64,000 nt of DNA. Origin: Edaphochlamys debaryana. Lineage: Eukaryota > Chlorophyta > Chlorophyceae > Chlamydomonadales. This document shows, one piece after another, positions 3,540-45,400 of this stretch. A program made the translations under genes and the position numbers. The notes under the pieces were generated by a model, which did not search any database, was not told where the DNA came from, and saw only the letters and a program-made list of their open reading frames with translations. Numbering within the stretch: position 1 is the stretch's first letter; each line of letters opens with the position of its first letter. The DNA lies in assembly GCA_016858145.1 (NCBI GenBank), contig JAEHOE010000025.1:186001-250000 (forward strand), in the 5' to 3' direction.

Positions 3540-4430
3540 GGCGGAAGCTGACGAATGCAGCGTAGGCTGTGCTCTGGGCCAAGCGGGATAGGCCATGCAT
3601 GACACTGTAGGGGGCATTGATAAAAGGCTGTGGACGGGCAGGGGCGGTGGGCACGAGGGGCAGGATGGCTCAAGGCATGAGGGCAGGTTGGGTGAGGAGG
3701 AGGGGGTAGGGCGCGATGGGCCTGATGGGTTTGGCTGGTCCAGAGGAGATTCAAGCGCGGGTGGGGCGCAGAGCAGGATTCAGTTGTTGTATGTGGCGGT
3801 GCGCAGTGGATGGGGATAAAGGCAGGATAACGGTACAACAAAGGCACGGCTTTGGCACAGAGGGAGTGGGGCACACGTGTGGTGGCATCGTTCGGCATGG
3901 TTGCTCATGGAGAGCGAGGCATGGAGGGACGCCGTGAGGTATGCTTGGACGACAGGTCAGAGCGTCAAATAGTCATGCAACCCCCGCAACTGAGGTCTCC
4001 AACTCAACGCCAGCCGACGCAAGCCACCGTTCAAATGCGGCACTGCAGGGTCCGTCCAAAGATCGATCTAGCCCGGCAACCCGGCAACCCCCAGAACCCT
4101 TCAGCCTTCGCCCTTCAGCAGAGGACACGCAATAATTGCCATGGTTGCCCTCGTCTGCTGCCCCCCACTCGTCATAGAGTTGCCGCCTTAGTCCCCATCC
4201 CAGCGCCCTCCCTTGCACTCCCTCCTCAGGTTCACCTACCCGCGTGCTCTCCCATGACCTCCCGGCACCCCCGTGCTTTCCCCACATGCAACGGCACATG
4301 CAACGGCAGCCCCCGATATCCGCGCTTGCATGCCCACCCTCAACATCCATGACAGCGGCGGGGTGCACCCCTCAACAAGCAACAACAACCCCGCCCTCAC
4401 TTGCGGCAGTCACCCCCCCCCCCCATTCCG
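3540..4430. other. Convergent 3' intergenic region
   Basis: This lies between the stop of the + strand EF-hand gene (3539) and the stop of the - strand VTA1 gene (4431). It should carry both 3' UTRs. I found no TGTAA signal on either strand and no further exon. Confidence 0.5.
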
Positions 4431-7400
4431 TCACCGCCTTCCACCCGGCTGCCCGTGCTGTCCGTGCTGCGCCTGCTGCGCCGCCTGCGGCTGCGTGAGG
4501 AGCCTGATGGCCTCCGTGAGGTGCTTGACGGCCGTAACCGTGTCCTCGAACGACAGCGCCGACACCGCGTACTTGGCCTGCTTCTGGGCGTCCGTGATCA
4601 CCTGCGGTTGGCGGTTAGACGGCATAATCGTATGGGGGTGGGTTCAACAGTCGTGGGAGTGGAAGAGCACGTTTGCGGCAGCGGGGCGCTCTCTCTTGAC
4701 GGTACTAACAGCCCAACCATCAGGTGGTCAAGGGCCATGCACGGTATGGCCAGTGGTCTGAACAAGCCCGCGGACCGCACATGACCCCCCGTGGGCCCGC
4801 TCGGGCCGCTTGTCTGAAAGGGCCCTCGTCATCCCCATGGGCCCGCTCGGGCCCAGCCGGGCCCACCTGCAGTGATGGCTTGTTGCCCGGCGGCACCGTG
4901 AAGGTGGGCATGGGCTGCTGCTGGGGCTGCTGCTGGGGCGGCGGCGTAGGCTGGGCGGCTAGCTGGGCGCCCCAGCCGTAGCCCGACGGCGCAGCGGGCG
5001 GCGCCGGTGGCTGCTGCGGCGGCGGAGCCCCCATGCCCATACCGAAGTGGCCTGACCCCACCGACGGATACCCCGGCGCTCCGGCGGCACCGTGCGCTGG
5101 CGGCGGCGGAGGCGGAGGCACTGCTGGCGGGGGCGGCGCCCGCGGCGGCGACGGCTGCGAGTAGGGCCGCGCCGCTGGCGGCGGCGGCAGCGGCGCCGAC
5201 GGGGCTGACGGCGCCGACGCGGGCAGCGGCGACGCCAGCTCGCTCGCCTCCGCCGCCACCTCGGCTCCCTCGGAGGTCTTGACCAGGTACGAGGGCGGCC
5301 TGGGGCCGGGGACCGTGGAAGGGTAGAGGGGAGGGCAGCTTGAGGATGGGTACTTCTAGCGTACCGGAAGCGAATCGGCATGAGTGCGATGTGCCTTTGC
5401 CTTCCCTGGCCCGTCACCTCACGTCCAGCCCCACCCTCGCGTTATCACCCGGCCCCGGCCACCCAACCGCCACCAGCACCGACGCGCCGCCAACCACCCC
5501 AACCGTCAACCGCCAACCGGCTCACCAGGATGCGTCGTTGATGAGCACCACGGTGCCGGCCAGCGGCGGCGCGGGGCCGCCCCCCAGTGCCCCCGCCCCC
5601 GGCCGCCTGCCGCGCAGCAGCACGGGGTCCCCCTCGGCCAGCGCCGGCACCGCCTCCTCCTCGTGCACGTCCACCAGTCGGTTCCGCAGCGCCACCTTGT
5701 AGCTGGGGTGGGGGGGCGGGGGGGGAGGCCAGCAGGGGAGGCAGGGGGTGAGGGGGGCGGAGAGGACGACGGTGTGAGCGGTGACACGGAAGGGCGGTAT
5801 GGGTCTGAGACGGTTGAATTCTTGATGATCTCGGCGGGAGAGACTTTGCGGACCCCTGCATTCGCCGCCTGCCTCCCACGGCTCTCACAGGACCCCGGCC
5901 GGCTGTTTCTCAGCCGGACGGAGGCTGCCGGGCCTCGGCCCACCTGAAGCCGCCGTCCGGTCGCGTCAGCACCTGCCCCACGGTCCCGGTCTGCGGAGGC
6001 GCAGGCAAAGGGGTTTGCAAGGGCCGGCACGGGGCGTGTGACACAAGCCGAGGATGGAACGCATAGCCGCCCCCGACTGGCCCACACAGAGGCCATAAAC
6101 CCCCCACTCCTGACGAGGCCCTGCCCCCTTGCACCCCCTGCAGCTCCGCCCCAAGCCCCAAGCTATCGGCCCAAGCCAACACGTGCACCATCCCAGCCCC
6201 CACCTGTGTCTCTTGCGACGCCTCGAGCCGCACCAGCAGCCGGGACCCCGGGTGGAACCGCGGGCCCGCGCCGCTGCCGCCGCCGCCACCCGCGCCGCCA
6301 AACGCCGCCGCTGGCGGCGGCGGTGGGTGCGGTGGCTGCGGTGCCGAAGGACCCAATCCAAGGTACGAGCCGCCAGAGAACGACGGGCCGCCGAAGGACG
6401 GTACGGATGGCAGGTCCGGGAAACCGTCACTGCCAGCTGGCGGCGGGGGCGGCGGCGGGGCGGTTGATGCGCCGCCGATGCTGCCGTACCCGGATCCAGA
6501 ACCAGAACCGGCCGAGATGCTGAAGTCGCCGGAGCCTGGCCCGGGCGCGGCCCGCGATCCAGCGCTGGATCCAGCTGCGGCGGTGCTGGATCCAGCGGGT
6601 GCAGATGGGCCGTACGCCCAGTCGCTGTTGCCGGAAGCCGGCGGAAGGTCGTCCACGCCGCCGCCGCCGCTGGGGCCCCCGGGGGCGGTCTTGACATTGC
6701 TGGGCGGCGGGGTGGGCTGCAGCGGCCAGGCATCATCGGGTCAGACACAGGCTGTCAGCAACAGACTGTGCCCATAGGCTTTCGTTCTTCAGCAGGTGCG
6801 CCTCCGTGCTTCGCGCACCCAACGCGCAGTTGTCCGCCCCCACCGACGCCAAGTTGCCGACCCACCCCGGTGCCCTAGCCCCGCCCCTCCCCCCGGCAGC
6901 ACCCAGCACCCAGCACCCCCCCCAGCCCCACCTGGCGGCCCTCCCTCAGCGCCTTGCGGATGTCCGCCGCCCGCCAGGCGCAGTAGCGCTGCTTCTCAAA
7001 CAGCTCCTGGTCCACCCCGCCGTCAAACTGGTTCAGGATCTGGGGGTGTGGGGGAGGGGACGGCCCAGGCACAGTAGAGTGGGAGGCGCCAGCACCAGCC
7101 GCAGGCGGCCGTGAGTGCGGCAGGCCCCGGCCCCGGCGCTGGGGCCATGCAGGGGTCGTCTGTGGACTGCAGCGGCGACCCGGACCCGCTCCCCTGCGGT
7201 GCCCCCCCCGTCGTCTCCCCCCAACCCCACCCCACCTCGATGAACACGGACGCTGCGTAGAAGGCCTTGGAGGTGCGCTCCGTGGCCTTGCCCGCCCGGT
7301 CCACCCTGGGGTGGGGGTTGCAGGAGGGGGAGGGGGGGGTGGAGAGGGCGTGTGGGGAGGTGGAGAGAGCTCGCTGGCAGAGCCCAGCGCCTGAGATACG

Positions 7401-20718: not shown

Positions 20719-22048
20719 GTTGACGGTTCAATAGGCCAGCGCTGTAAGTCCAGAAGTCTGTGGAATGCGTTTGGCGAACCCTGCTCGACGCCAACCTCCT
20801 CGCTATGGGTGTCTAACTGATGGTTACTGTGCTGACAATAAGCGGTCAACAGCTACAAGGGCGCGGCCCTGGTTGGTTGCCAGGCTCCTGAATGTCCGTC
20901 AACGTCGACGCTGCCGCTGGGTTACGTGAGCGGGTCGACAAAGCTCGGCGTTGAGTTGGGTAGCGTCGACGCGGCCGACCTGCGCGGCGCGGCTTGAGGA
21001 GAGGAGCGGCCGCATTGCCGTGCCGTACAGGTTGTGACATGGTCAGGCGCTGTGGGCAGGAGGAGTGTGGCTCCAGGACGCCTAGTGAAAGCGCAAGGGG
21101 CGCCGGGTGGGGAGGGGGGGCGGTGGGTGCCGGGCCGGGCCGCCGTCACGGCCGCATGTCGCCCCACATGTCGGCGCCCACTGGGGTTGAGGTGAGATGC
21201 TCGCGAGACACTCATCCTGGCCCCTTTCGCCTTGCTTCGGCGGTCCTCTCTCCCCTTACAGATCAGCACCCGTCAAGGCTCTACTGGGTGGGGTACGATG
21301 TGAGCCGCCGGCCGCCCGGCGCCAGGGATTACCCAACACCATGCGCGAGCGTACCTGCCGGTAATTCACGCACCCTGCCCCACTACGCCCCTTTGTCTAC
21401 AAGTACCCGGCCTTACTCGACTCCATGGCCTCCTGGTAACTGGGGGCCCGGACCCCTGTGTGGCCTCGTGCACTTGCTTTGCATTCGCTCAGCAACCAGC
21501 ACCATCCCGCTCAGCATTGCAATTTACTCGGCAACCCTTTCCCCCCCCCCCGCTCAGCCACTATGCCCAGCTTCTCTACATATCTCGTATCGACACGTGA
21601 TGCCTGCAAGCCCCTTCCCTTTTACCTCACACCGCTATGTACTGCCCACACCGCACGCATGCCGACACATGAATACACACGGCCGCTGTACATTGCCCAA
21701 GCAAGTCTCAAACTCGCCACGGCACAACACTACAGCCTGTTCCCAAGTCAGCTGATCATGCCTCGTCGGTGGCTCCTAGTCTGAGGCTTGCCAAGCGCCG
21801 CCTGCGCCTGCACCTCCGCCCGGGCCTACTCTGGGGCCCTGACCCGTGTGTGTGCACTCCCATTGCATTCGCTCGGCAACCAGCACCCCTCCTGGCTCAG
21901 CATCCATCGGCAGCCTCTCAGTGGCCCCCTACCGTGTCGCTCACACCGCTATCTACCCTGCACCCCAGGGTTGCACCTCGGCATTGCATTGTCAGAGATT
22001 GGCCCCGTCCACGCAGCCCCGCCAGGTCACACCCCATGCGGGACGCAG
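20719..22048. other. Intergenic: kinesin 5' flank and MYND gene 3' flank
   Basis: No gene is supported. It holds the kinesin promoter side and the 3' UTR of the MYND gene that stops at 22049. A short phrase ([21 protein letters not shown]) occurs near 21485 and again near 21870, a small local direct repeat. The part nearest 22049 is related to sequence below 27864, the matching flank of the duplicated copy. Confidence 0.5.
21256..21260 (-). terminator. Candidate poly(A) signal for the intact MYND gene
   Basis: TTACA on + (TGTAA on -) lies about 790 bases downstream of the stop codon at 22049-22051. Confidence 0.35.
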
Positions 22049-25000
22049 TCACACCTCTTGGACCAACTCCCCGAGCTGTGCGAGGACGTCGTTGCTGTCC
22101 GGCCCCGTGGTAGCTCCTGGAGCCTCCTGGGGGCGCGAGTAAGTCGGGGGGCCGGAGAGAATGAGGCCGGATGGAGTAACGAGGTTGGTGGAGATGGTGG
22201 GTGCTTACATCGCCCACGCCAAGGAGGGCCTCCTGCCCAACACGGGCTCTGCACTGACACTCCCGATCACCGCCCGACCACACGGTACCATCGCAAGGTA
22301 CCAAGACCCGGCCTCACCTGCTCGACGGTCGCCAAGGGATGTGCAAGAATATCGCTGCGGCTGAGCCCCCTGAGGGCCTGCAGGGTGACCTGGGGGCACG
22401 AGAGGGCCGCGGGGGGGTGTATGCAGCGGGGCGCAGGGAGGGGCTAAGGCTTACACAACGACGCGGGACGCAGAAACCGTACAGTGAAGCCCTCAAGACT
22501 TACCCCCTCAGCGTTTTGCACCAAAGCCACGCCGGGGCCCGGTGCAGCCGAGGGGCCTCCCCGCGCCGCTGGCGGGGCTCCCGGCTGAGCCACGGAGGCC
22601 GTGGCGGGGAGGGCTGCGGCCGGAGCGAGCGCGGAGGCTGCCGGCGCCGCCGCCCGGCCGCACGCTTCCTTGTGCCCCGCCCGCCAGTGCGCCGTCTGGC
22701 ACTCGCGGCAGCAGTAGGCGGCCGACCCACATCGCCCGCACCGCTGCAGCCGCAGCCCCGCCTCGCTGTCGCCCGCCAGGTTGGCGCAGGCCGGGTTGGA
22801 GCAGGCGGGGCGCAGCGCGCGCGCAGCCGTCGGCGGGGCCACGAACGCCCAAGCCAGGGTATCCCCCACAGGGACCTCCCATTGGGATTCGAGGCGCCGC
22901 AGCTCCTCCGCCCCTCCCCGTCGCTGCAGGGCTGCAACCAGGGCCTTCACCCGCGCAATGGTCCCCTCACTGCACCCCACCGCGCGCAGCTGCCACAGCA
23001 GCAGCCGCAGCGCCTCGAGTGGCCAGGGCAGGGCGGCGGCGCTGAAGCCTGCGCCGGCGCCACCGCCGCCGCCCGCCGCCGCCGCCCGCCGCACCTCCTC
23101 CGGCCAGACACGCGCCGCACACACGCAGGCCTCCCCGACGGCCTCCAGAGTGGGCCGGTACTCGGGCCCCAGCACTGCACTGCCTCGGTCCTGTAGCCCG
23201 GGAAGGAAGGGCCGGGGCACGGCAAGGGGGCGTGAACTTCGAGTTGGGCCAGGAGATTTAGGCGCCTCAACGAGCGGTGGGGCGGAAGCCACAACAAGAG
23301 CTCATCGGGTGTCAAACCCTACTGGTCTGCATAAGTCCGCATGCTGACCGCACACTCACCGGCAGCATGACCAGGCACGATCCCAGCAGGGAGACCAGTT
23401 GGACGTCGCCCTCCAGGAACGCCCGCCAGTCGGGCACGGCGACGGCGCTGGAGGGGGGCCACCACCTGGAGCTGTCCAGCAGCCTCTCTCGCACACCATC
23501 GTCTGTGGCTTCCGCTGACGCCAACTCGAAGTCAGCGGCGGCCAAGGCTACGAAAGAGCAATCGCCGGGGCCCGCGCTGATGTCAGAACACGCCACGGGC
23601 CCAAGCAGGCCCAGCAGGCGGGCCAGTACCGGGCCCCACGCGATCTCCCCTACGGCCAGCCCCCAGAGGCTGCTCTCGTAGCTCCTGGCCTGCCCGCCGC
23701 GCCCGCCTACGCCCGGCAGCTGCCCGCGACGGTTCAGCTCCCGGGCCGTCGCCTCACGCACGAGCCGCGACAGCTCGGGAAGGAGCGAGACGATTGTGAA
23801 GGTGAATGACAGGGGCGTGCAGCGTTTGCCTTCGTTGCCTTGGGGTTGGTTGGCGTACTGCGGGGCCACGCCCGGGCACATGACGTCCACCAGTTCCATA
23901 GCGGAGTAGACCAGGCACAGCGCGGACCCCACCAGGCCCGTTCGGGCCCAATCCAGGCCCTCCGTCGGCTGGATCAGGACCCCTGGGTCCATACGGCGCA
24001 GGAGTTTGGCGCACGTGGCGCCGAGGGCGGTTACGAGGGGTACCGGGCCGTAGCACTGCAGCACAGTGCTGACGGTTTCGAACTCCTCTGCGTCCGCAAT
24101 GCAGCCGGCAATGGAGGCGGCAGGGCCGCTGGGGTCCTCGCCCGCCCGCCGCAGCAGGCACTCCAGGGTGGGGATGAAACCGCCACGCAGAGCCGCGGCC
24201 AGGGGGCGCGGCGGCCAAGGGGACAGCACTACCTTGACCCCTGCATGCGGTCGGGACAAGGGGGTCGAGGGGCTTGGTTGAGGAAGGCGGCAAGGCGTGG
24301 GCGTCGTGGTGGGGCTCAGGTGAGGACGGCGGCAAAGCGGTGGTGCACGTCTGCTCCAACTCGCAGCGTCGAGGGACGCCCTATCCCTGGTCCCTTCCCT
24401 GTCCAGCCACCCGCGGCCAAGCGCGCCAGGCAGTGCAGCATCCCCCGCCAACCCACCCATCCACTCACGCACGGGGTGCACAACGGCAGTCTCCAGGTCC
24501 ATCATCAGCCCACGCAGCGCTCCCAGCAGTGGCAGGGGCACGTCAGCGGCCCCGCCGGCCGCCAGCACACACGCCCGCAGCAGGGCCCGGCAGATCTCCA
24601 CCTCCTGGGAGCCCAGCGCCTGCCCCGGTGCGGCGGCCGTCAGGCGCCGGAGCCTGCTCAGCAGGTCGGCGGCGGTGGCGCAGGCGGACTCGGGCGGCAG
24701 CAGCTGCAGGAAGGTGCCAGGTGGAGGCACGCCCAGGCCCAGCGCTCCGCCTCCGCCTGCGCGCCGGCCCTGCGCTGCAGCCCCTCCGTCAGGCCCCTCC
24801 GGAGCCAGCTGCCGCGGCCCTGACGCCCCTGTGCTGCTGCCCGCCGGCCCTGCCGCCGCGGGTGCTGTTCCCGCAAAACCCGCTGCACCTGCCCCCGGCC
24901 CCGACCCCGACCCCGCTGCACCTGCCCGCGGCCCCGACCCCGCCGCCGCTACTGCCTCCGGCCCCGCCTCCGCCGCCGCCGCCGCCTCCGCTGCCGCCTC

Positions 25001-26479
25001 CGCTGCCGCCTCCGCCGAGGCCAGCGCGAGGCGTGTGGCCCTCAGCAGCAGAGCTAGCGCGGCTCGGTGGCTGAGGCAGGGGCTGGGGCCGCCGCGGTCC
25101 CGCTCGACCGCAACGCCCAGCGTTTGCACGTGGGACAGCAGGGCCGCGCCAGCTGCTGAACGGGCGCCCGCGCCCGTGCCTGCGCCCGCACCCGCGCCCG
25201 TGCCCGTACTCGCTCCTGGGTCTGCAGACCCGCCCACGCCTGACCCCGCGCCGCCCTCCGCCAGCTCCAGGGCCCCGCCCACGTCGTCCGGCAGGCCCCA
25301 GGCGGGCAGCCCATCCGCCTCCGCCAGGGCCCGCACGCACAGCGCTAGCAGCGGGTAGCGTTCAGAGGCGCGGACGGGAGGCGGGGCCGAGGTTGCGGCG
25401 GTCAGGACCCCAGACACCAGGAGCCCGGACAGCGACAGGTAGGCAGAGAAGGCGGCGGCGACCGTGGACCTGTGGGCTTGGGTTGCGTCCATGGGCGGCG
25501 GCGGCAGCAGCAGGAGGCCGGCGCGGTCGATCAGGGCGCTGGCGTGGAGGGCTCGTAAGAGGGTGGCGGTCAGGCGCCAGGAAGTGGCGGAGAGCTTGTG
25601 GGCGAGCGTCTGGACCAGGCGCAGCAGGTGGCCCGCGCGGCCGGCGACGCGCTCGTGGCGGGGCGTGGATGTTGGGGCGGAGGGGCCTGCCGCGGAGGCG
25701 GCGCCGCCAGCACGCGCGGCGGACGGTGCCAGCCCTGCGGCTGGCGCCGCTGCTGACGGTCCAGCGGACGGACCGGCAGGCGACGCGTCTGGGCAGTTCG
25801 CTGCCATGTCCCGACGAGTGGCGGGAGGCGTGCGTTGCATCGCCCCCACGGAGGACCCCACGCGGCCTGCCTGCAAGGGCATGTCCGCCAGCGAGGGGGT
25901 CGGGGGGGCCGCCGGAGTCGGGGGAAGTCCTGGCGGTGCCACGGCCAAGGCCTCCGCCGCTTGCGACAGCTGGCGAGCTGCCGCCTGCAGTGTGTCCATC
26001 CGCAGAAGCGTTTCCGCAAAGGCGATGAGGGCTGGGTCCGCGCACGTCAGCGGTTTGATTAGCAGCAGGACAAGCTTCAGCACCGCGCAGCCAGTCCAGC
26101 TCAGAACGTCCTCCCGCGAATCCGAGCTTGCGCCTTGCGACAGATCCAGGCGGAGCGTGACCGCGAGGACCTGCAGCAGCGCCCGTCCGGACCGCTGAAG
26201 GATGGCAGATGCCGCCGGCTCGCGCTCCGCAGCCGCAACGCCGACGAGGTAGTGCTGCAGCGCGTCGAGCTCATTTTCGATCTTGCATAGCTCTGCGGTG
26301 GTGAGCGGCTGCTTAGCAGCGGGTGCGGCGTGTCCGATGCCGGTGGCATTGGACGCGGCCGCGGGAGGTCGCGAGGCTGTTTCAGCCACCAGGCGACTTG
26401 CAGCTTTATCTAAGAATGCTAGTGCGTTGGTTACGTTCGTCGGCAGCGCCACCGCAGGTCGCGGTGCGCGCGGGGGCAT
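22049..26479 (-). CDS. Large MYND-type zinc finger protein (intact copy)
   Basis: Exons 26479-24469, 24240-23360, 23190-22504, 22389-22318, 22126-22049 (TGA), all in phase, 1242 residues. The start is the ATG opening MPPRAPRPAVALPTNV. The first 960 residues are helical and rich in Ala/Leu with long Ala/Gly/Pro-rich insertions, and resemble nothing I can name. The MYND finger is in exon 3 at about residues 1095-1145, with CSNPAC, RCGRCG, YCCRECQ and HWRAGHKEAC supplying the Cys/His ligands. MYND fingers mediate protein-protein contacts, so a scaffold or regulatory role is possible but not shown. Two 24-residue exons (ending LATVEQ and ELVQE) close the protein; the stop is conserved in the second copy. 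Large MYND proteins are numerous in Chlamydomonas-like algae. It lies in the left copy of the tandem duplication. Confidence 0.82.
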
Positions 26480-27292
26480 GTCACCCCCGCGAGATCGAGG
26501 CCAACTGCGGTGGATGAGAGCTCAGGGCTGCTGCTGTGAAGTCAAACGACCTTGTGTATTCAAGTGTGCACGGGACAGGCTGTGGGCTGGGGCTGCAAGC
26601 CCCCGATCTTGCCCGACGATGTGACCCGCCCCAACCCGCCTAGCCCATCGCAGAGCCCGTCTGAGCCCCGCGGAGCCACTGTGCCGCGCTTTCGCTCTGG
26701 CCCTCGTCCCGGCCTGCCGGCTTGCTTCCTCACGGTATGTGCCCCAACCCAGGCAAACGTTCTCGCGCCACCGCCCTACAGCCTGCAATGTTTGCCCCCA
26801 ACAGCCCTGGCAGTTATGCGCCTCACAACGCTGAACCGAGGCCCAAGAACCAACCCCCCAGTTCCCCTCACCCCTGCAGTCCCCTGCCGCCAGGACTCCC
26901 AAACGCTGCAAGCCTGGAACTCTGCCCCAGTTCGGTTTCAGGTCTCAATAGCACAAACACTTGAAAGTCATGGTCATGGTGGTCAAACGCAGCCATCCCC
27001 AGCAGCGCCGCCCTCGCCCTTGCTTCGCTGCGCAACCCTGGCTGTTGCTTGGACATTCGACGTGCGCCCTCTCCTCCACTCCTGCTCTCGCTCTTGTCAT
27101 CGCCCTGCGCTGCGTGTCATCCGAGCCCCCCCCCCCACGGCCTTCGGCTCGCGGCCTCCCTGCAGTCGCTTCCTTCCCTTCCTTCGCTGACCTGGCCGTT
27201 CCCCGACCCCCGGGGCCGGAATGCAACCGGCCGCTCCCACAGCGGTACGAAACCCCCCTTCCTCCGCCGCTCACATCACATTACCTCACTCT

Positions 27293-27714: not shown

Positions 27715-27863
27715 TTTACCCAAGCCGAGGGTTGCACCGGGGGTTGCACTCCGGCATTGCATGGCCAGAGAGTGACTGTAGACCCCGTCCACGCAGCCCT
27801 CTCAGGGTCACACCACCCTGCCCTCTTCCAGCATTGACCAAGCAACATGGGGGGCGCACGCAG

Positions 27864-30800
27864 TCACACCTGTTGGACCAACTCCTCGAGCTGTGCAATG
27901 ACGTCGTTCCGGTCGGGACTCGTGGTGGATCCTGGAGCCTCCTGGGGGCGCGAGGAGGCAAGGGGGGCGGCAGGTGGGAGTGAGGCCGGACGGCGGTATG
28001 ACGACGGCTCACGACGGTAGAGGAGCGAGTGGAGGTAATGGAGGTGATGGATGCCCTGCTGCCCAACACGGGCTCTGCACGGACACTCCCGATCACCGCC
28101 AGACCATACGGTACCATCGCAAGGTACCAAGACCCGGCCTCACCTGCTCGAGGCTGGACAGGAGATGCGCGAGGAGGTCGCTGCGGCTGAGCCCCCGGAG
28201 GGTCCGCTCGTGGACCTGGGGGGGTGGGACGAGAAGGCCGCGGGGGGTGTCTGAAGCCACCGCGCGGGGAGGGGCTTAAGCAGGTCCCAGGCAGTCAGTC
28301 CGGGCCGTCACCGCCGTTCCCTGGGCACAAAGCACTCCAACCCTGCTCTGACCTCAACACCATCCGTCCATCTACCGACCACAATGGAACACGCCAGGCT
28401 GCAGCCGTGCGAGCAGGTGCAACCTAGCCGCGGTCACCAATCAAGCCCTCCCGACTCACGTAGAAGTCAACCCGGCGCAAGTCAGTGTCAGGCGCGCAAG
28501 CCGGGCCCGGTGCAGCCGCGGGGCCGGGGCCCGGTGCAGCCGAGGGGCCGGGGCCCGGTGCAGCCCAGGGGGCCGGGGCCCGCCTGCGCCACTGGCGGGG
28601 CTCCCGGCTGAGCCACGGAGACGGTGGCGGGGAGGGCTGCGGCCGGAGCGAGCGCGGAGGCGGCCGGAGCCGCCGCCTGGCCGCACGCCTCCTTGTGCCC
28701 CGCCCGCCAGTGCGCCGTCTGGCACTCGCGGCAGCAATAGGCGGCCGACCCACATCGCCCGCACCGCTGCAGCCGCAGCCCCGCCTCGCTGTCGCCCGCC
28801 AGGTTGGCGCAGGCCGGGTTGGAGCAGGCGGGGCGCAGCGCGCGCGCAGCCGTCGGCGGGGCCACGAACGCCCACGCCAGGGTGCCCCCCAGCCCCGTGT
28901 GGGATTCGAGGCGCTGCAGCTCCTCCGCCCCTCCCCCTTGCTGCAGGGCTGCGACCAGGGCCTCCACCCGCGCAATGGTCCCCTCACTGCACCCCACCGC
29001 GCGCAGCTGCCACAGCAGCAGCCGCAGAGCCTCGAGTGGCCAGGGTAGGGCGGCGGCGCTGAAGCCTGCACCGCCGCCGCCACCGCCGCCGCCCGCCGCC
29101 GCCGCCCGCCGCACCTCCTCCGGCCAGGCACGCGCCGCACACACGCAAGCCTCGGCTACGCCCTCCAAAGTGGGCCGGTGCTTGGGCGCCATTGCTATCT
29201 TGCCCGAGTCCTGCAGCCCGTGAAGTAAGGGGCACGGGAAGGGGGGCGTGGGCTCCGGATAGGGACGGGAGCAGGGGCCATGGTTTGCCTGCGGGCCCCC
29301 CGAGCGTGCTCCGACACCATGCCGTGGGCCGCAGGCGACAGGTACCCCTAGATAGGCCGTGCACTAGCGCACTCGCTTGCATTGCACATGCATGGCTGGC
29401 CTACGTATGGCCTACGTATCCTAACCAGCAGGTGTCATCGCCCCGTGCAGTGCCCTGCAACCAAGCTGACCGCACACTCACCAGCAGCAGAATCAGGCAC
29501 GCCCCCAGCAGGGACACCAGGTTTACCTCGCCCTCCAGGAACGCCCGCCAGTCGGGCACGGCGACGGTGCCGGCGGATTGCCACCACGTAGGCACATCCG
29601 GAACCTCCTCCCGCGTGACGCCGGCCTCCGCCTGGGCCTCAGACGAGGGCCCGTCGGGGCCTGCGCTGACGTCAGCACACGCCAAGGGCCCAAGCAGGCC
29701 CAGACAGATGGGGAGCGTGTGGCCCTATGCGAGATCCCCAACCGGCAGCGACTTAATGCTGATTTCCTGGTACCGGCACCTGGCCTGCCCGCGCCCGCCG
29801 ACGCCCGGCAGCTGCCCGCGACGGTTGAGCGCCAGCGCCGTCGCCTCACGCACGAGCCGCGACAGCTCGGGAAGGAGCGAGCCGATGGTGAAGGTGAGCG
29901 ACAGGGGCGTGAACACTTGGCCGCCGATGCCCCCGGGCTGGGCGGCGTCCTGCGGGGCCAAGCCGTCGGGCAGGCAGGACACGAAGTCCCGAGCGCTGAA
30001 GGCCAGGTACTCGGCGGGCCCAACCAGGCCCGTCCGGGCCCAGGCCAGGCCCTGGATCGGCTGGATCAGGACCCGTGCGTCCGTACGGCGTAGGACTTTG
30101 GCGACCGTGGCCACGAGCGGAACCACGTGGGCAACCGGGCCGTAGCACAGCAGCGCAGTGCTGATAGCAACGAAAGCGTCTGCGTCCGCAATGCATCCGG
30201 CAATGGAGGCGGCAGGGCCGCTGGGGTCCTCGCCCGCCCGCCGCAGCAGGTACTCCAGGGTGGGGATGAAACCGCCACGCAGAGCCGCGGCCAGGGGGCG
30301 CGGCGGCCAGGGCGGCAAGACCAGCTTGTTTACTGTATGTGTGTTGGGGCGCACAGGTGGGGACAGGGGCTACCGTAAAGCGTAATGTAGCGCAGTGCAC
30401 GAGGGCACGAGGGGACAGGGGTTTGACATGGGCCTTCAGCGAGGGAACGGACAAGGTTCCATTCTGGGCGCGGGAGGCCCAGTCAGGCCGGCCCAGGCCC
30501 CTAGACCCCAGGCCCAGTCAGGCCCAGGCCGGGCTACACCTCCCAGGGCTCCCACCCACGGCACACGCACACCCACGTGTGGGATTCACGACCGTCGCCG
30601 CCAATTCCACCATCAGCGCCTCCATCAAGCTCAGCAAGTCCCGGGGCACGTCAGCGGCCTCGCCGGCTGCCAGCACGGACGCCCGCAGCAGGGCCCGGCG
30701 GATCTCCACCTCCTGGGAGCCCAGCGCCTGCCCCGGTGCGGCGGCCGTCAAGCGCCAGAGCAGACCCAGCAGGTCGGCGGCGGTGGCGCAGGCGGACTCG

Positions 30801-32744
30801 GGCGGCAGCAGCTGCCGGAAGGCGCCGGTTAGAGGCGCGCCCAGGCCCAGCGCTCCGCCTCCGCCTGCGCGCCGGCCCTGCGCTGCAGCCCCTCCGTCGC
30901 CAGGCCCCTCCGGAGCCAGCTGCCGAGGCCTTGACGCCTCTGCGCTGCTGCCCGCCGGCCCTGCCGCCGTGGGCGCAGTTCCCGCAGAACCCGCTGCACC
31001 TGCCCGCGGCCCCTCCTCCGCTGCCGCCTCCGCCGACGCCAGCGCGAGGCGTGTGGCCCTCAGCAGCAGAGCCAGCGCGGCTCGGTGGCTGAGGCAGGGG
31101 CTGGGGCTGGCGCGGTCCCATTCAAGCAAGCCGCGAAGCGTCTGGACGTGGGACAGCAGTTCCTCGCTGGTCGCGCCTGCGCCTACGCCTGCGCCCGCAC
31201 CCGCGCCCGCGCCTCCCTCCGCCAGCTCCAGGGCCCCGCCCACGTCGTCCGGAATGCCCCAGGCGGGCAGCCCATCCGCCTCCGCCAGGGCCCGCACGTT
31301 TAGCGCGAGCAGCGGGTAGCGTTCAGAGGCGCGGACGGGGATCACGGGAGGCGGGGCCGCGGCCGGGGCTTGCGTGGGCCCCGAACAGCAGGGCCTGCAG
31401 CAGGGAGCGGTAGGAGCTCAGGGCGATCAGAAACGTGGACCGGTATTCGTGTGCCGCGTCCATGGGCGGCGGCGGCAGGCGCAACAGGACTAAGCCGGCG
31501 TGGTCGATCAGGGCGCTGGCGTGGAGGGCTTGGTTCAGGGTGGCGGCCAGGCGGCCGTTGGTGACGGCGAGCTTTTTGGCCAAGGTCCAGAGCATGCCCA
31601 GCACGCCGAACACGTACTCCAGAACGTCCTCGCTGAGGGGCGCGATGGTTGGGGCAGCGCCGCCGTCTCCCGCCAGGGTGGGGGCGGAGGTCCCTGCTGC
31701 CGCCGAGGTCCCTGCCGCCGAGGTCCCTGCCGCCGAGGTCCCTGCCGCCGAGGTCCCTGCCGCCGAAATCCCTGCCGCCGAGGGCCCGGCCGCCGAGGGC
31801 CCGGCCGCCGAGGGCCCGGCCGCCGAGGGCCCGGCCGCCGAGGTCCCTGCCGCCGAGGGCCCGGCCGCCGAGGGCCCTGCCGCCGAGGGCCCTGCCGCCG
31901 AGGGCCCTGCCGCCGAGGGCCCTGCCGCCGAGGTCCCTGCCGCCGAGGGCCCTGCCGCCGAGGGCCCTGCCGCCGACGTCCCTGCCGCCGAGGGCCCGGC
32001 CGCCGAGGGCCCGGCCGCCGAGGGCCCGGCCGCCGAGGAGGCGGGGCTTGGGGCGGAGGCGCCACCAGCCGCAGCCGCTGCCGACGGCCCCGCCTCATCC
32101 GGCCCTGCTGCCGCTGGAGCCCCGGCGCCTGGCGCCGCCGCGGGCGGACCCGCGTAGTCTCCCTGCATCAGCGTGTCCGCCAGCGAGGGGCCGCCGGAGC
32201 CCGGAGCCGGGGGAAGTTCTGCCGGCGGTGCCACGGCCAAGGCCTCCGCCGCTTGCGACAGCTGGCGAGCTGCCGCCTGCAGTGTGTCCATTCTCAACAG
32301 GGTCTCCGCAACGGCGACGAGGGCTGGGTCCGTGCACGTCAGCGGTTCGATTAGCAGCAGGACAAGCTTCAGCACCGCGTAGCAGATGAGGCTCAGGGCT
32401 TCCTCCCGAGAGTCAGGCTCCGCGCCTTGAGACAGATCCAGACGGACCGTCACCGCGAGCAACTGCGGCAGCGACCGTCCGGCCCGCCGCAGGATGGCAG
32501 ATGCCGCCGGCTCGCGCTCCGCAGCCGCGACGCCGACGAGGTAGTGCTGCAGCACGTCGAGCTCATTTTCGATCTTGCATAGCTCTGCGGTGGTGAGCGG
32601 CTGCTTAGCAGCGGGCGCGGCGTGTCCAATGCCGGTGGCATTGGACGCGGCCGCGAGAGGTCGCGAGGCTGTTTCAGCCACCAGGCGACTTGCAGCTTTA
32701 TCTAAGAATGCTAGTGCGTTGGTTACGTTCGTCGGCAGCGCCAC
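27864..32744 (-). pseudogene. Second MYND gene copy, probably a pseudogene
   Basis: Exon structure parallels the intact copy: 32744-30577, 30332-29482, 29210 to about 28488, 28215-28144, 27941-27864. The MYND finger, splice sites and final stop are preserved. Lesions visible against the other copy: (1) the position of the initiator ATG (26479 in the intact copy) has no ATG, and the frame runs back to a stop without one; (2) one extra base near 31355-31375 shifts the frame between LLQALLFGAHAS and the PVRASERYPLL segment; (3) an in-frame TAG at 29725-29727 replaces a Trp codon; (4) exon 3 reaches a TGA at 28488-28490 before its splice donor. It also carries a Ser/Ala/Gly/Pro minisatellite absent from the other copy. 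A functional truncated product from an unseen upstream exon cannot be excluded, nor can assembly errors for lesion 2. Confidence 0.8.
31690..32037 (-). repeat. 15-bp minisatellite coding for AAGPS/AAGTS repeats
   Basis: About 23 tandem copies of a 15-base unit (GCCGCCGAGGGCCCK on +) lie in the first exon of the degenerate MYND copy. They read as repeated Ala-Ala-Gly-Pro/Thr-Ser. The intact copy has only a short Ala/Gly/Pro/Ser-rich stretch here, so the array expanded after duplication or was lost from the other copy. Confidence 0.9.
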
Positions 32745-33602
32745 CGCAGGTCGCGGCCCGTGCGGGTCGCACCCCGCGAGATCGAGGTAAACTGCGGTGG
32801 ATGGGAGCTCAGGGTTGCTGCTGCGAAGTCAAGCAACCTTATGTGTACTTCAGTGTGCGGGGGACAGGCTGTGGGCTAAGGTTGCAAGGCCCCAGGCCCC
32901 GATCTTGCCCGACGATGTGACCCGCCTAGCCCATCGCTGAGCCCCGCGGAGCCACTCGTGCCGCGCTTTCGCTCTGGCCCTCGCCCCCTTCCTGGTTGCC
33001 TCCTCGCGGTACGGGCCCCAGCCCAGGCAAACGTTCTCGCGCCACCGCCCTACAGCCTGCAACACCCCCAACAGGCCGGGCAGGTGTGCGCCTCGCAACG
33101 CCAAACCGAGGCCCAACAACCCCTCAGGTCCCCTCACCCCTGCAGTCCCCTGCCGCCAGAATACCTGAATCGCAACTTGAGCGCCAGTTCGATTGAAGGT
33201 CCCAACAGCACAAACACGAAAGTCATGGTCTTGGTGGTCAAACGCAGCCATCCGCCGCCGCCCTCGCCCTTGCTTCGCTGCGCAACCCTGGCGGTTGCTT
33301 GGGCATCCGACGCACGTGCGCCCTCTCCTCCACTCCTGCTCTCGCTCTTGTCCGCACACCATTGTCAGTCCACCCAGGAGCCATCACCCCCGACCCCCAA
33401 CCCGCGGCCCGTGCCCACCTGTGCCTGCTCGCACAGTCCCCAATCGCACTCCGCAGCGACCTCCCCTCCCAGCAGCCTCCCCTCCCAGCAGCCGCCATCC
33501 CGCTCCTGACCTGCCCTCTCCCCTACCTTCATGGCCGGCGCGCAACCGGCCGCTCCCGCTCCTGCCCCACCCCCCTTCCTCCACCGCTCACATCACCTCA
33601 CT

Positions 33603-36600
33603 TCACTTCTTGGGCGCTCCCCCCGGGCCCATGGCCAGCACCTGGGCCGAGTCCCCCGTGCCGTGGTGGCCCAGGCGGAAGGCGCGGCGCTCGGCGTGCT
33701 CGTACAGCTTGCGCTCCAGTACGGCGCGCCAGATGGCGGGCGTGAGTACGGCCTCGGGTGCGCCGTACACAGCCGACTGTACGGCAGCCATGAACTTGGC
33801 CAGCTCACGGCCTGGGCGGGGGAGGGATGGGGGGGGGAAGGGCGGGTGTCGGTGTGGGTTTCTGTGACAAACGTGTTCGTGGGGTGGGGCCGGCATTGAC
33901 ACGGTGCCGTCTGGATGCTTTCCCCGTCCCAACCCAGCGGCGCTGGCTCCGTGCCTGTGCGGCGCTGGGGCACAGGGTGCTAGTTTGCAGCTCAGGTGGA
34001 TTAACGAGTTTAGTGTTACGGGCCACATGTGAAGTCCCCAACACAGAGTGGTGTCATCACAGCTGCAAGCGCGCTTATGGAACCGCGGAGCGCTTTTCGT
34101 GCAGCGGATGCTCCCCAGAATCTTGGCTCAGAAAACAAAGCATTGATATGTGATGGGTCAGGAGTTCCCCACGGATAGTTTCTCCTCACTGCCAGTTATG
34201 AGAAATGCGCCCCCAGGTGGGGCCGGGCCAGCCGCCCTTCGCGCCCCTTCCCGTGAATGCCAGGCCTCCGTTCGCCCGGTATCCCCCTCCTGGGAACCGA
34301 GTGACACACGAATGGAGCCACGGGGGTTGCGGGGTGGGGACTCGCGCATGTTCGTATGTTGGGGCTGCCTGGTGTCGCACGTGCATTGGGAAAGGCATAT
34401 GGGCCCGTTTTGCAGCTCCGGTGGATTAACGAGTTTGGTGTTTACGGGCCACGTTTTTGGGTCCCCAACACAGAGTGGTGTCATCACAGCCGCATGCGTG
34501 CCCGGGTTTTGGAGCGACGACGGAGAGACGTTTGGCTCAGAAAACAAAGCATTGATGTGTGATGGGTCAGGAGTCCCCCACGAGTATTTTCTCCTCATTG
34601 CCATGTGACGTGTGCCTAGATGGGTGGTCTGCATATAACTCACGCCTACGCTTTGCCACCTCAACTGCAAGCTGTCTCAGCTGAATACACGACCCGTTTG
34701 GTGTCTTCGGGCCATGTCTATAGTCCCCAACACATAGGGTTGTTCACCACGGCCCCCGGCTTAACTTTGCCTTCATCCTCCATGGCATGACGACGCAGTC
34801 AGCGGGGTGACTATGCGCGCACTTGGCTCAGAAAACAAAGCATTGATATGTGATGGGTCAGGAGTTCCCCACGAGTATTTTCTCCTCATTGCCGTGCGCC
34901 CGCAGTGGTTTCAGCCGCTCAAGAAAACCATCCGCGTCTGCGCTATCACAATTTCGCTTTAGCAACCCCCTATCCTGCCGTCGAGCCCTCTCCGCGGCAG
35001 GAGGCGGCAAGGGGGATGGCGGTCGCTTGACGGACGGGTGGAGGGCGGGGTGTAGGGTGGGGGCTTGCGCCAGCGTTAAAGAGCTAAGCTTGTGTTCAGC
35101 CTCCAATGGTGAGCCGTCTAGATCGTATGGCCTGGGTCGGGGTGCATAGTTTGCGAGTCGGTTGAGAGGGGCGCAAGGGGCTGACTAGCAGCTCAGGTGG
35201 ATTAACGAGTTTAGTGTTACGGGCCACATGGTAAGTCCCCAACACAGAGTGATATCATCACAGCTGCAAGCGCGCTTGTGAAGCCGCGGAGTCGTTATCG
35301 TGCAACGGATGCTCCCCACAGAGACTTGGCTCAGAAAACAAAGCATTGATGTGTGATGGGTCAGGAGTCCCCCACGGATATTTTCTCCTCACTGCCAGTT
35401 TTGAGATATGCGCCCCGAAGTGGCGCCGGGCCAGCCGCCCTTCGCGCCCCTTTCCGTGAATGCCAGGCCTCCGTTCTCTCGGTATTACCCTGCCATGCTA
35501 CCGACCACTCCCACGCCGGATGCAGCCTAGGGGGATTGGGAACCGCGTGACACACGAATGGAGCCACGGGGGTTGCGGGGTGGGGAACTCGCGCATGTTC
35601 GTATGTTGGGGCTGCCTGGTGTCGCACGTGCATTGGGAAAGGCATATGGGCCCGTTTTGCAGCTCAGTTGGATTAACGAGTTTGGTGTTTACGGGCCACG
35701 TTTTTGGGTCCCCAACACAGAGTAGTGTCATCACAGCTGTCTATGCGCTCTAGTGTGTTGCACGTGCAGTGGGCGATTCAGAGGTTAGGCTCAGAAAACA
35801 AAGCATTGATGTGTGATGGGTCAGGAGTCCCCCACGAGTATTTTCTCCTCATTGCCTTTGTGACGTGCTTAGCGGCAATGTGATGACAATAGTGCCCTGT
35901 GCCGGGACGTGGGGCTGTTTCCTCGCGCCGCGACGCGCCTTGCACCCTTCGACCCCACCCCGGACGCAGCACGGACGGCACGCCACGAGCCCACAACCCT
36001 CCCCCCCGCACCCACCCGAGAAGCCCTCCGTGGCCGCGGCGGTCTCCGCCAGCAGCGCCTCCGTGATGCCCTCGGCGATGGCGATGGTGTCGGCGGAGGA
36101 CTGAGGGGGGGAGGGGGAGGAGGAGGAGGGGAGTGTTTGGAGGATAGGAGAGGAAAGCCAGAGCGAGGAAGCAGGAGTCGGTTGGTCAGGTGCCTGCAGA
36201 CGCAACGCACGGGTAAGGCTACACTCCCCGCCTCCCTCCCTGCTCTTGCGCCCGCGTGCCCGCGTGCCCGATTCCCCCGAACCGGCCCTTCCCCGGCCCC
36301 TCCGCCCCCGGCCCCACCTTGCGCCCCTTGAGCAGGGACCCCAGCCGAGCCAGGGGGCCGCCCGACCGCCCCGTGCCCGCGCCGCCCTCCGCAGTGCCCG
36401 CCTTGGCAATGTACCTGGGGAAGAGGAAGGGGGGGGACGAGCGAGCGAGCGTCTCAGGACAGCAGGCACAAGGGGCGCACCGGCAACCACGCGCAGGCAC
36501 GCTACCGACAACATAACTATCCGCACACCCCTTTTCTCTGCTTTGGGTCGCACCCCCTCGACTCCCCTCACTTGTCGAGGTGCAGCCACCTTCCCCTCCT

Positions 36601-42435: not shown

Positions 42436-45400
42436 ATGGCAGAGTCAACTCCACTGCTGCAGGCAGACCATGGAGCCGGAGCTGGCGCTTCACAGCAGTC
42501 GGAGCTGCAGAGGAAAGCCTCCGGCTGCGTGCTGCACGCAACCGAGACCTGCTTCCTCATGGACGGCTCCCACAAACAGAACGCGGAGCACAGGAAGGTC
42601 AGAAACGCAAGCTTTGATGCCGAGTGCAAAACTGCGGGTGCACCACCGGGATCGGCCTTGTCGCGCAGGTTCAACGCAAGCTTCTCATCGCATGCATCTT
42701 GTGCCTCATCTTCATGGTTGTTGAGGTCGTGGGAGGCTACCTCGCAAGAAGGCAAGCAGTCGCACGCCATTTTCCGGCGCACAAACTGCGTTTCCGTTGT
42801 TAGGAGCCTCGACAGCCTTCGCCAACTAGCTGCTCTGCATAGCAACCCAGCAAGCCGCCGACGTTGGAGAGGAATCTCGGGGGGGGGGACGCGTGCCGCG
42901 CACCAGCCGCCGAAACCCGGCCCGACCGGGGTCTCCACACCGTCGGGCCCTCACACGGCTGAAGTGCCCGCCACTCAAACGGCGAGGCCAGGCACTTGTA
43001 GTTTCGTCAGTGGGCAGGCACCTACTTGAGCCAATCGCCTGGACAGCTGCTCGGGGGCGGAGGAGCAGGGCCCATGCTGTGCCCTGCTCCAGACCATTGC
43101 ATCCCACGCTGCAGAGTACCCCCTCCTGGCCCTCACGAACCGCGTTGCCCCCCTCCTGACCCTCCCTTTCCCCGATCACACCCTACAGCATTGCCATCCT
43201 CTCGGATGCCGCGCACATGCTGTCTGACGTGGCGGGATTCGCGGTGTCGCTGTTCGCGGCCTGGGCCGTGACGCGCAGGAGCCATGAGTCGTACACGTTC
43301 GGATACCACCGGATCGAGATCCTGGGCGCCCTGGCCTCCGTACTCACGATCTGGGCCGTCACGGGGGCGCTGGTGTACGAGGCCGTGCTGCGCGTGCTGT
43401 ACCCAGAGCCGGTCAACGGCAAACGTGAGGCGCATGCTGGGGCCAGGGTTTCCTGTTGAGGGACACGCGGGGGTCGAGAGCTTTCGGTCGGGCTTCAGAC
43501 CATCCTCTTAGGGCGTGGGCTTCGGGTCTTGCAGGAGTGGGGCGACGGTGGTGTCAGGGCTCTGGGCGCTGGGGTCTTTCGGGATCCATCAGGTGGTAGC
43601 AGGGAGGCTGCTCGGGTCTGGGCCTGGCTGAGGGCTGAAGATGGGGTACCCGCACCTTGCCGGTTTGTGCCGGGCAGTTGCCCGGGTGAGCCGCCGCCCG
43701 TGTGTGGCCGTCGCCTCCTGACCCCCGCCACCTACTCCTCTGCTTACTCTCCGTGCCCCTCACCCCGGCCCCCCCCAGTCATGTTCATCATCGCCTGCGC
43801 CGGAATCGGGTTCAACCTCGTCATCGCTGCCGTACTGGGCGAGCACCACGTGCACGGCCCCGGTGGCCACTCGCACGACCATGACCACGACCACGGTCAC
43901 GGGCACTCCCACGGCCACTCCCACGGCCACGGGGGCCACTCCCACGGTCACGGCCACGGCCACAGCCACTCGGACGACGACTCGGACCACAGCCACCACG
44001 GTCACGGCCACTCGCACGGCCACAGCCACGGCCACGCGCGCGCCGCTCCTGCGGCCGGTGCCGGTGGCAGCGCTCCTGCGGCCGGTGGCCACGACCATGG
44101 CCACGACCACTCCCACTCCCACAGCGATGACGACCACTCCCGCTCGGGCCACGGCCACGGCCACGGGGGTGAGCTGGGGGAGGGAGTTGGGCAGGGACGG
44201 GGCAGGGTAGGCGTGCGGGTGGGGTGGGGCCTTGGGCCCGCTGCGGCAGACCAGCCAGCAGGATACCAGTATGTGGGTGGGTGCACGAACAAAACGAGGT
44301 TGGGATGGATGGGGGGTTAGCCTGCGTGCCGGGGTGTTGCGCGAGGCATGGGTGTTAGCTGTGCGCCGGAGCTTGTGTGCGGCAAGGGAGCTGTGTGGGC
44401 GGTGTGAACCCGGGTTAGGCCCGCTGCGCAGAGCAAGCAGGGCGGATAGCGACAGGGATTGGGGGACGGATGGGTAGCCTGCGCGCCGGGCTCGGGCATG
44501 CGAGAGGCGGACCGTTTGTCTTCCATGTGCGGACGAGCCTGGCCGGGAGTTCAGGGGGTGGGCCAGGGGCGTGGGCAGGGGTCAGGGAAGCAGCCTCGAC
44601 TCCGCGGGAGGACTGGCTGGAGCCACGAGGCCAGAGCGCAGTGGACCCCGGACCCCGCCGCATGGTCTGCTGAGCCCACAACCAGCCTCCTCGGTCCTCG
44701 CTTAGTTTTTGACTTCGGCTCTGCTTCCTCCACACCCTGCCCGCAACTCCGCGTGCACCAGAGGCGCCCGGCAACACCAACCACACCCCAAGCCCCCCGG
44801 TCCCAAACCCTCACTCCCTCCTCTTACGCCCCCGCCCGCTCCGACCGCAGACAAGGGCAGCACGTGCTGTGTGATTACGGTGCCGCTGGCGGGCGGCCAG
44901 GCGGCGGGCGCGGGCGGCTCCAAGCCCATCACCGGCGTCATACGGTGAGCGGGGTTGGCGGAGAGATCCCATCGGGTGTGGCGGAACTGGTACAATGTTT
45001 GTGGTCCGGGTGTGTGTGACCGGGCAGGGATGTCGCTAGGTCGGGTGGTAAAAGGGCTACCGCCAACCAGGTGGAATCGAACCACTGGGCCTCCCGGCCC
45101 CTACGGATTTGAAGTCCGCACCCAACGCCAGTCAAGATCAGGCTGGCATTCGGTCGGGTTCGATCGCCTAACCTCAAGGTGCTGTTGCGTCTTCAAAAGA
45201 GACGAGGCCATTTAAGTTCGCCTCGATGACCAAATCTGCAAACTTGCCGCCTATATACCTGTCGTACCGTACGGCAACATGTACGACATTGCCGTACAGC
45301 ATTTCACACATCCGTATCTCCTGTCCCCGCAGCGAGGGCGACCACGAGGTTCCGGTGTGCGTGGACCCTGGCCAGGTGGGGCTAGCGGGGTGCGGGCTAG

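Follow-up and report, generated by a model that had tools for sequence, protein, structure and literature searches.

The window analyzed here, a stretch of 64,000 nucleotides of the green alga Edaphochlamys debaryana, hosts on its minus strand a gene whose last intron contains an array of ten short repeated units. This intron (33812..36015, 2,204 nt) begins with the donor GTGGGT at 36015 and ends with an acceptor CAG at 33812, and by our own reading of the genomic sequence and its frames the reading frame runs on across the junction. When six exon pieces of the gene were compared with Pfam, two matched ATAD3_N (E 7e-10 and 2e-7) and one matched AAA (E 1e-6). The other three, including the last exon, gave no Pfam match, so that the last exon is joined to the gene by the reading frame only. 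The best solved relatives of the AAA exon are Rix7 and not ATAD3, and the gene, called ATAD3-like here, takes its name from the ATAD3_N matches. The ten units are of two types, here called R and L, and lie on the minus strand from 35856 to 33988 in five consecutive R-L pairs. The first unit (R5) begins 158 nt after the donor, and 176 nt of intron remain after the last one (L1). Every unit is found on the coding strand of the ATAD3-like gene inside its last intron, as the original prediction had claimed.

Outside the array, the window carries a selenocysteine tRNA gene at 45062-45147 on the minus strand (Rfam RF01852, 76.5 bits). We also observed a direct duplication over several kb (22043-25576 with 27858-31553, and 25867-27098 with 32159-33352), whose pieces longer than 250 nt are 78-92% identical and lie approximately 6 kb apart. 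A minisatellite with a 15-nt unit, 22.8 copies and 94% matches occupies positions 31697-32038.

In transcription order, the R units are R5 (35788..35856), R4 (35328..35396), R3 (34825..34893), R2 (34534..34602) and R1 (34125..34193), all on the minus strand. Each is 69 nt long, with GGC/GCC ends, a box C of the form RTGAGGA, an internal CTGA and a terminal CTGA serving as box D, which agrees at every place with what had been claimed for them. Pairwise identity among the five ranges from 63 to 69 of 69 positions (91-100%), R2 being identical to R5 throughout. The outermost stem pair of R5 is A-U, and all five units, with their boxes, stem and guide, were matched in the joint-feature scan described below. 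All five R units of the window keep the boxes, the stem and a 14-nt guide, and CAATGCTTTGTTTT directly abuts box D. The internal CTGA is conserved as well. We found no convincing guide (D') upstream of it and no clear C' box, which counts against a box C/D reading. In R1, the 10 nt that end 1 nt before the internal CTGA match the LSU rRNA piece L035 with one G-U among them, and this match was not recovered in the alga's own LSU piece covering that place.

The L units follow the R units on the same minus strand as L5 (35659..35739), L4 (35189..35268), L3 (34670..34754), L2 (34414..34494) and L1 (33988..34066). L1, L4 and L5 have GTGATGA as box C and CTGA as box D, their CAGC/GCTG stem is 4-7 bp long, and a single nucleotide separates CTCGTTAATCCA from box D. 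All three, whose boxes are standard, were recovered both by the L search model and by the joint scan. In L1, the 7-bp terminal stem TTGCAGC/GCTGCAA reaches just past the ends given here. L2, which matches the L model, has an intact guide, a box D of CGGA instead of CTGA and a stem containing a G-U. L3 is degenerate and a probable pseudogene: its box C is GTGGTGA, its guide is altered and its terminal stem is lost. It is nonetheless a clear L homologue, scoring 38.6 bits (E 3e-7) against a model built without it. The original prediction of five L units, with L2 and L3 damaged, was right in number and in damage, and only the length has changed, from about 78-80 nt to about 79-85 nt. The interior of the L units is predicted to form a hairpin (GUGUU-GGG / CCC-AACAC) that is mostly kept in L3, and the inner conserved segments GTGTTGGGGAC and TGGCCCG are present even there. 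The altered guide of L3, GTGTATTCAG, stands before a CTGA and pairs with the alga's own 18S rRNA over 10 nt with one G-U. Since 6.5% of random places match equally well, we rejected the idea that L3 has been retargeted to 18S. A 12-nt match between the inner part of L5 and the same 18S, which is not beside a box D, is likewise held to be due to chance. This comparison of guides with 18S and LSU rRNA covered 7 of the 16 R and L units, while R8, R9 and a further unit X were compared separately.

These additional units emerged from a search of the whole 142-Mb assembly, the counts of which are lower bounds. We used an L model built from six of the seven L units (without L3) and an R model built from seven of the nine R units. 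Two more R-L pairs lie at locus L023 on contig C29, namely R6 (4081-4149) with L6 (4196-4278) and R7 (6655-6723) with L7 (6768-6850). All four are sense to their host and, with intron borders by our own reading, sit in two introns of one gene, probably a kinase/cyclase. Exon pieces of this host match HATPase_c, Response_reg and Guanylate_cyc, all under the Pfam cut-off (21.4 bits for Guanylate_cyc, against a cut-off of 21.9). Two diverged R units, R8 (5707-5772; 44 bits, E 2e-12) and R9 (6069-6135; 52 bits, E 7e-15), lie at locus L071 on contig C65, again sense to their host. R9 has a 10-bp terminal stem. Of three exon pieces tested here, the upstream exon matches Amino_oxidase (PF01593), and by our own reading of the borders R8 and R9 appear to lie within an intron of an amine-oxidase gene. 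Between them, and also sense to the host, is a box C/D-like unit (X, 5898-5964) with GTGAGGA, an internal CTGA and CGGA. Unit X combines an L-like stem (GCAGC/GCTGC) with a guide that differs from both R and L, and is 62% like R8 over 39 nt. We found no rRNA guide for it in the rRNA pieces compared, where its only match is of 9 nt and not at box D. Apparently in the same intron as R8 and R9, the 63-bp arms of a perfect inverted repeat enclose a loop of 7 nt (5233-5365); this may be the precursor of a small RNA, a hairpin element or an artefact of the assembly.

All copies found are intronic and sense to their host, in three genes. The same R-L order with a spacing of 39-70 nt recurs in seven R-L pairs, including that of L3. 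Allowing at most one mismatch, the R guide together with box D has at least nine matches in the genome, and all those found are inside R units. The L guide together with box D has at least six, and all those found are inside L units. The reversed patterns of both have no match in the assembly.

Across all copies, box C is GTGATGA in L1, L2 and L4-L7 and RTGAGGA in R1-R7 and R9, the departures being R8 (CTGAGGA, without the initial purine) and L3 (GTGGTGA). Box D is CTGA in R1-R6, R8, L1 and L3-L7, CCGA in R7 and R9, and CGGA in L2. Box C/D snoRNAs are recognized by a box C of the RUGAUGA type and a CUGA box D, and the units have both, with the variants just listed. They also have a terminal stem of 3-10 bp, which among the L units is lost only in L3. 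The UGAGGA of the R units in place of UGAUGA, the CCGA of R7 and R9 and the lost purine of R8 count against the box C/D reading. The standard kink-turn has a U-U at the place concerned, where a box C of UGAGGA with a box D of CUGA or CCGA would give G-U or G-C. A local variant of the kink-turn is therefore possible.

To compare this anatomy with chance, we scanned the window for the joint occurrence of stem, box C, guide and box D on both strands, requiring a guide of at least 10 nt of Watson-Crick pairing. The scan returned eight matches, all inside the array, and only one match in total over 200 windows shuffled by a first-order Markov procedure; the box C and box D variants allowed had been picked after the units had been seen. 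It missed L2, because of the G-U in its stem, and L3. When the requirement is reduced to a CTGA with at least 11 nt complementary to the rRNA pieces no more than 2 nt away, both strands of the window contain 11 such places, eight of them in the array and three without a box C. Places of this kind without a box C are common by chance (one to eight per window in 20 shuffles). The array anatomy is not due to chance.

The guides point to the conserved core of LSU rRNA. The R guide ATGCTTTGTTTT, invariant in nine copies and 14 nt long in seven of these, is complementary to AAAACAAAGCAU(UG), as the L guide CTCGTTAATCCA is to UGGAUUAACGAG. In each intact unit, 0-1 nt separate the guide from the box D that follows it, in keeping with box C/D snoRNAs, whose rRNA antisense guides of approximately 10-21 nt lie right before that box. 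The Rfam consensus for eukaryotic LSU rRNA has UUAAUUAAAACAuAGcauugc and AAUGgAuUAACgAGAUUCC at the two targets. Against it, L pairs with UGGAUUAACGAG at 12 of 12 positions and R pairs with AAAACAAAGCAUUG at 13 of 14, the mismatch being an A against a lower-case u; this position is an A in both LSU pieces that were checked with Rfam. The claim that both guides fit the conserved 25S core is therefore borne out on the Rfam consensus. In actual LSU sequences of other eukaryotes, the guide matches span 10-12 nt. Those of R are no longer than 10-11 nt, as the final letters of the R target belong to a variable helix, and this shortening relative to the consensus counts against the box C/D reading and slightly lowers our confidence in it. 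By the fifth-nucleotide rule, and counting on the Rfam alignments, the predicted methylation sites would be the C of UUAAAACAAAGC for R (RF02543 position 2152) and the first A of UGGAUUAACGAG for L (RF02543 position 2323). The former would correspond to yeast Cm2197, the site guided by snR76. The latter is not known as a site of 2'-O-methylation in yeast.

Three core patterns gave no match to the alga's own 25S rRNA at either target in the 142-Mb assembly, which also counts against the box C/D reading. The 25S pieces in the assembly stop before the targets, reaching approximately 1.3 kb into 25S, and contig C287 covers only positions 1-840 of the LSU model. On contig C220, the 25S copy exits the rDNA after approximately 1.1 kb into other sequence, beside a run of N, by our own reading; the Rfam match on this contig nonetheless extends to model position 3401. 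Short LSU fragments of 46-85 nt are scattered over contigs C2, C172, C130, C11, C7 and C144 (loci L026-L031), five of them 89-100% identical and the one on C144 79% identical. Since the target part of the alga's own 25S was not found, we used LSU pieces from prokaryote bins instead, and two scans of viral contigs returned no match to the LSU patterns. The comparison set consists of 24 loci, many of them archaeal by title, two of which were checked with Rfam; all 24 were inspected around the pattern, and some end early on one side. AAAACAAAGC occurs in four of them (L035, L040, L043 and L044) and TGGATTAACGAG in two (L035 and L051); none of the 24 contains all 14 nt of the R target.

We then asked how conservation is distributed along the array. 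R2 and R5 agree at 69 of 69 positions, and their aligned flanks agree at only 21 of 39 and 17 of 37, so that the boundary of conservation between them is the terminal stem. Of the 220 positions aligned between the R1-L2 and R4-L5 spacers, with 44 gap columns set aside, 208 are identical. Recent duplication of the block has left the R1-L2 spacer no less conserved than the units, and high identity alone is consequently no proof of selection. These unit and spacer identities support the idea, already part of the original prediction, that the array was amplified by local duplication.

The outermost stem pair of the nine R units is U-A in five, C-G in two, A-U in one and unpaired in one. Overall, 35 of 36 stem cells are paired, and one pair shows changes on both sides. 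The covariation score of the nine units was reached by 7 of 500 shuffles, and that of the seven closer copies alone by 69 of 500. Two of the five R measures do not exceed the shuffles (297 and 218 of 500), and only one of the four pairs varies; the covariation is modest and to this extent counts against the box C/D reading. In the seven L units, the pair at columns 15/96 is A-U in three, G-C in three and G-U in one, and the five measures over the whole L stem were reached by 44 to 324 of 500 shuffles.

At the gathering threshold, Rfam reports no snoRNA in the window, nor in loci L022 and L023, and this too counts against the box C/D reading. A permissive Rfam search returned snoU54 (RF01277) and snoU61 (RF01170) below cut-off, among other chance matches. 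Their best scores are 19.7 and 19.9 bits, compared with gathering thresholds of 35 and 55, and the units are not members of these families. The snoU54 consensus has the same AUGAGGA variant of box C as the R units, and snoU61 shares the GCUGUGAUGA start. By their putative target, the R units can be likened to yeast snR76, since pairing of the R guide places its fifth nucleotide before box D opposite the C of UUAAAACAAAGC. They differ from it in their UGAGGA box C and in their at least nine intronic copies. Intronic clusters of box C/D genes are common in Chlamydomonas and land plants, and they resemble the array in having several units per intron, in sense orientation and with tandem duplication. 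By comparison, a two-gene set repeated five times within a single intron seems a high number. The array is a highly repeated new case of a kind, the intronic polycistronic box C/D cluster, that is already well known.

In our view, the array very probably (about 0.92) consists of box C/D snoRNA genes that are clustered in an intron and guide LSU rRNA methylation. The anatomy, the joint scan, the Pfam matches of the host and the fit to LSU rRNA all support the earlier proposal of box C/D units in an intronic polycistronic source. It appears highly improbable that we are dealing with a mobile element or a minisatellite whose likeness to snoRNAs is fortuitous. Such elements could account for the tandem layout, the dispersal to three genes and the duplication of a block of units along with its spacer, but not easily for conservation that stops at the stem ends in R2 and R5, for a covarying outer stem pair in R, or for an anatomy with rRNA guide that shuffled windows produced a single time in 200. 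Moreover, the copies found in our genome searches are all sense and intronic, and none lies in random orientation or place. It is also improbable, if a little less so, that the units are box C/D RNAs with another main role, such as orphan snoRNAs or regulators of splicing or of the host gene, whose complementarity to rRNA is unused. The inner L segments kept even in L3, for which the predicted structure is a hairpin and not a guide, would fit such a role. The guides of 12-14 nt speak against it, as they lie exactly beside box D and are among the most conserved parts of the units, also in the diverged C65 copies.

A more serious alternative, which we regard as possible and yet on balance unlikely, is that many of the copies, above all of L, are now pseudogenes and that few make RNA. 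L3 has lost its stem, its guide and a good box C, L2 carries CGGA as box D, and redundancy over four introns would be expected to relax selection on single copies. Against this, all five R units of the window have kept boxes, stem and 14-nt guide, and six of the seven L copies, on two contigs, share an identical guide.

If the array is a box C/D cluster, established box C/D biology suggests that the host intron would be spliced out and the units trimmed to their stems. Snu13/15.5K, Nop56, Nop58 and fibrillarin would then bind the trimmed units, and the resulting particles would add a 2'-O-methyl group to the rRNA nucleotide facing the fifth guide position before box D, which is the C for R and the A for L. 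The units probably multiplied by local and also by dispersed duplication: the R-L pair would have spread by tandem and segmental duplication within the ATAD3 intron and dispersed into introns of two other genes. Most copies may be held by selection for the RNA, with L3 decaying. We can further speculate, with little confidence, that L guides methylation at the A of UGGAUUAACGAG, a site not known in yeast, and that this guide and the one for the neighbouring C site were amplified as a co-transcribed pair, up to seven copies, which would dose both methylations together, with R using a variant kink-turn of UGAGGA with CUGA or CCGA.

The array offers a clean small system in which snoRNA genes can be followed as they multiply, move into further introns and decay. 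One genome holds 16 R and L units and one further box C/D-like unit, in four introns of three genes, with conservation limited to the units and one decaying copy. In addition, two nucleotides of the algal 25S rRNA are predicted as sites of 2'-O-methylation.
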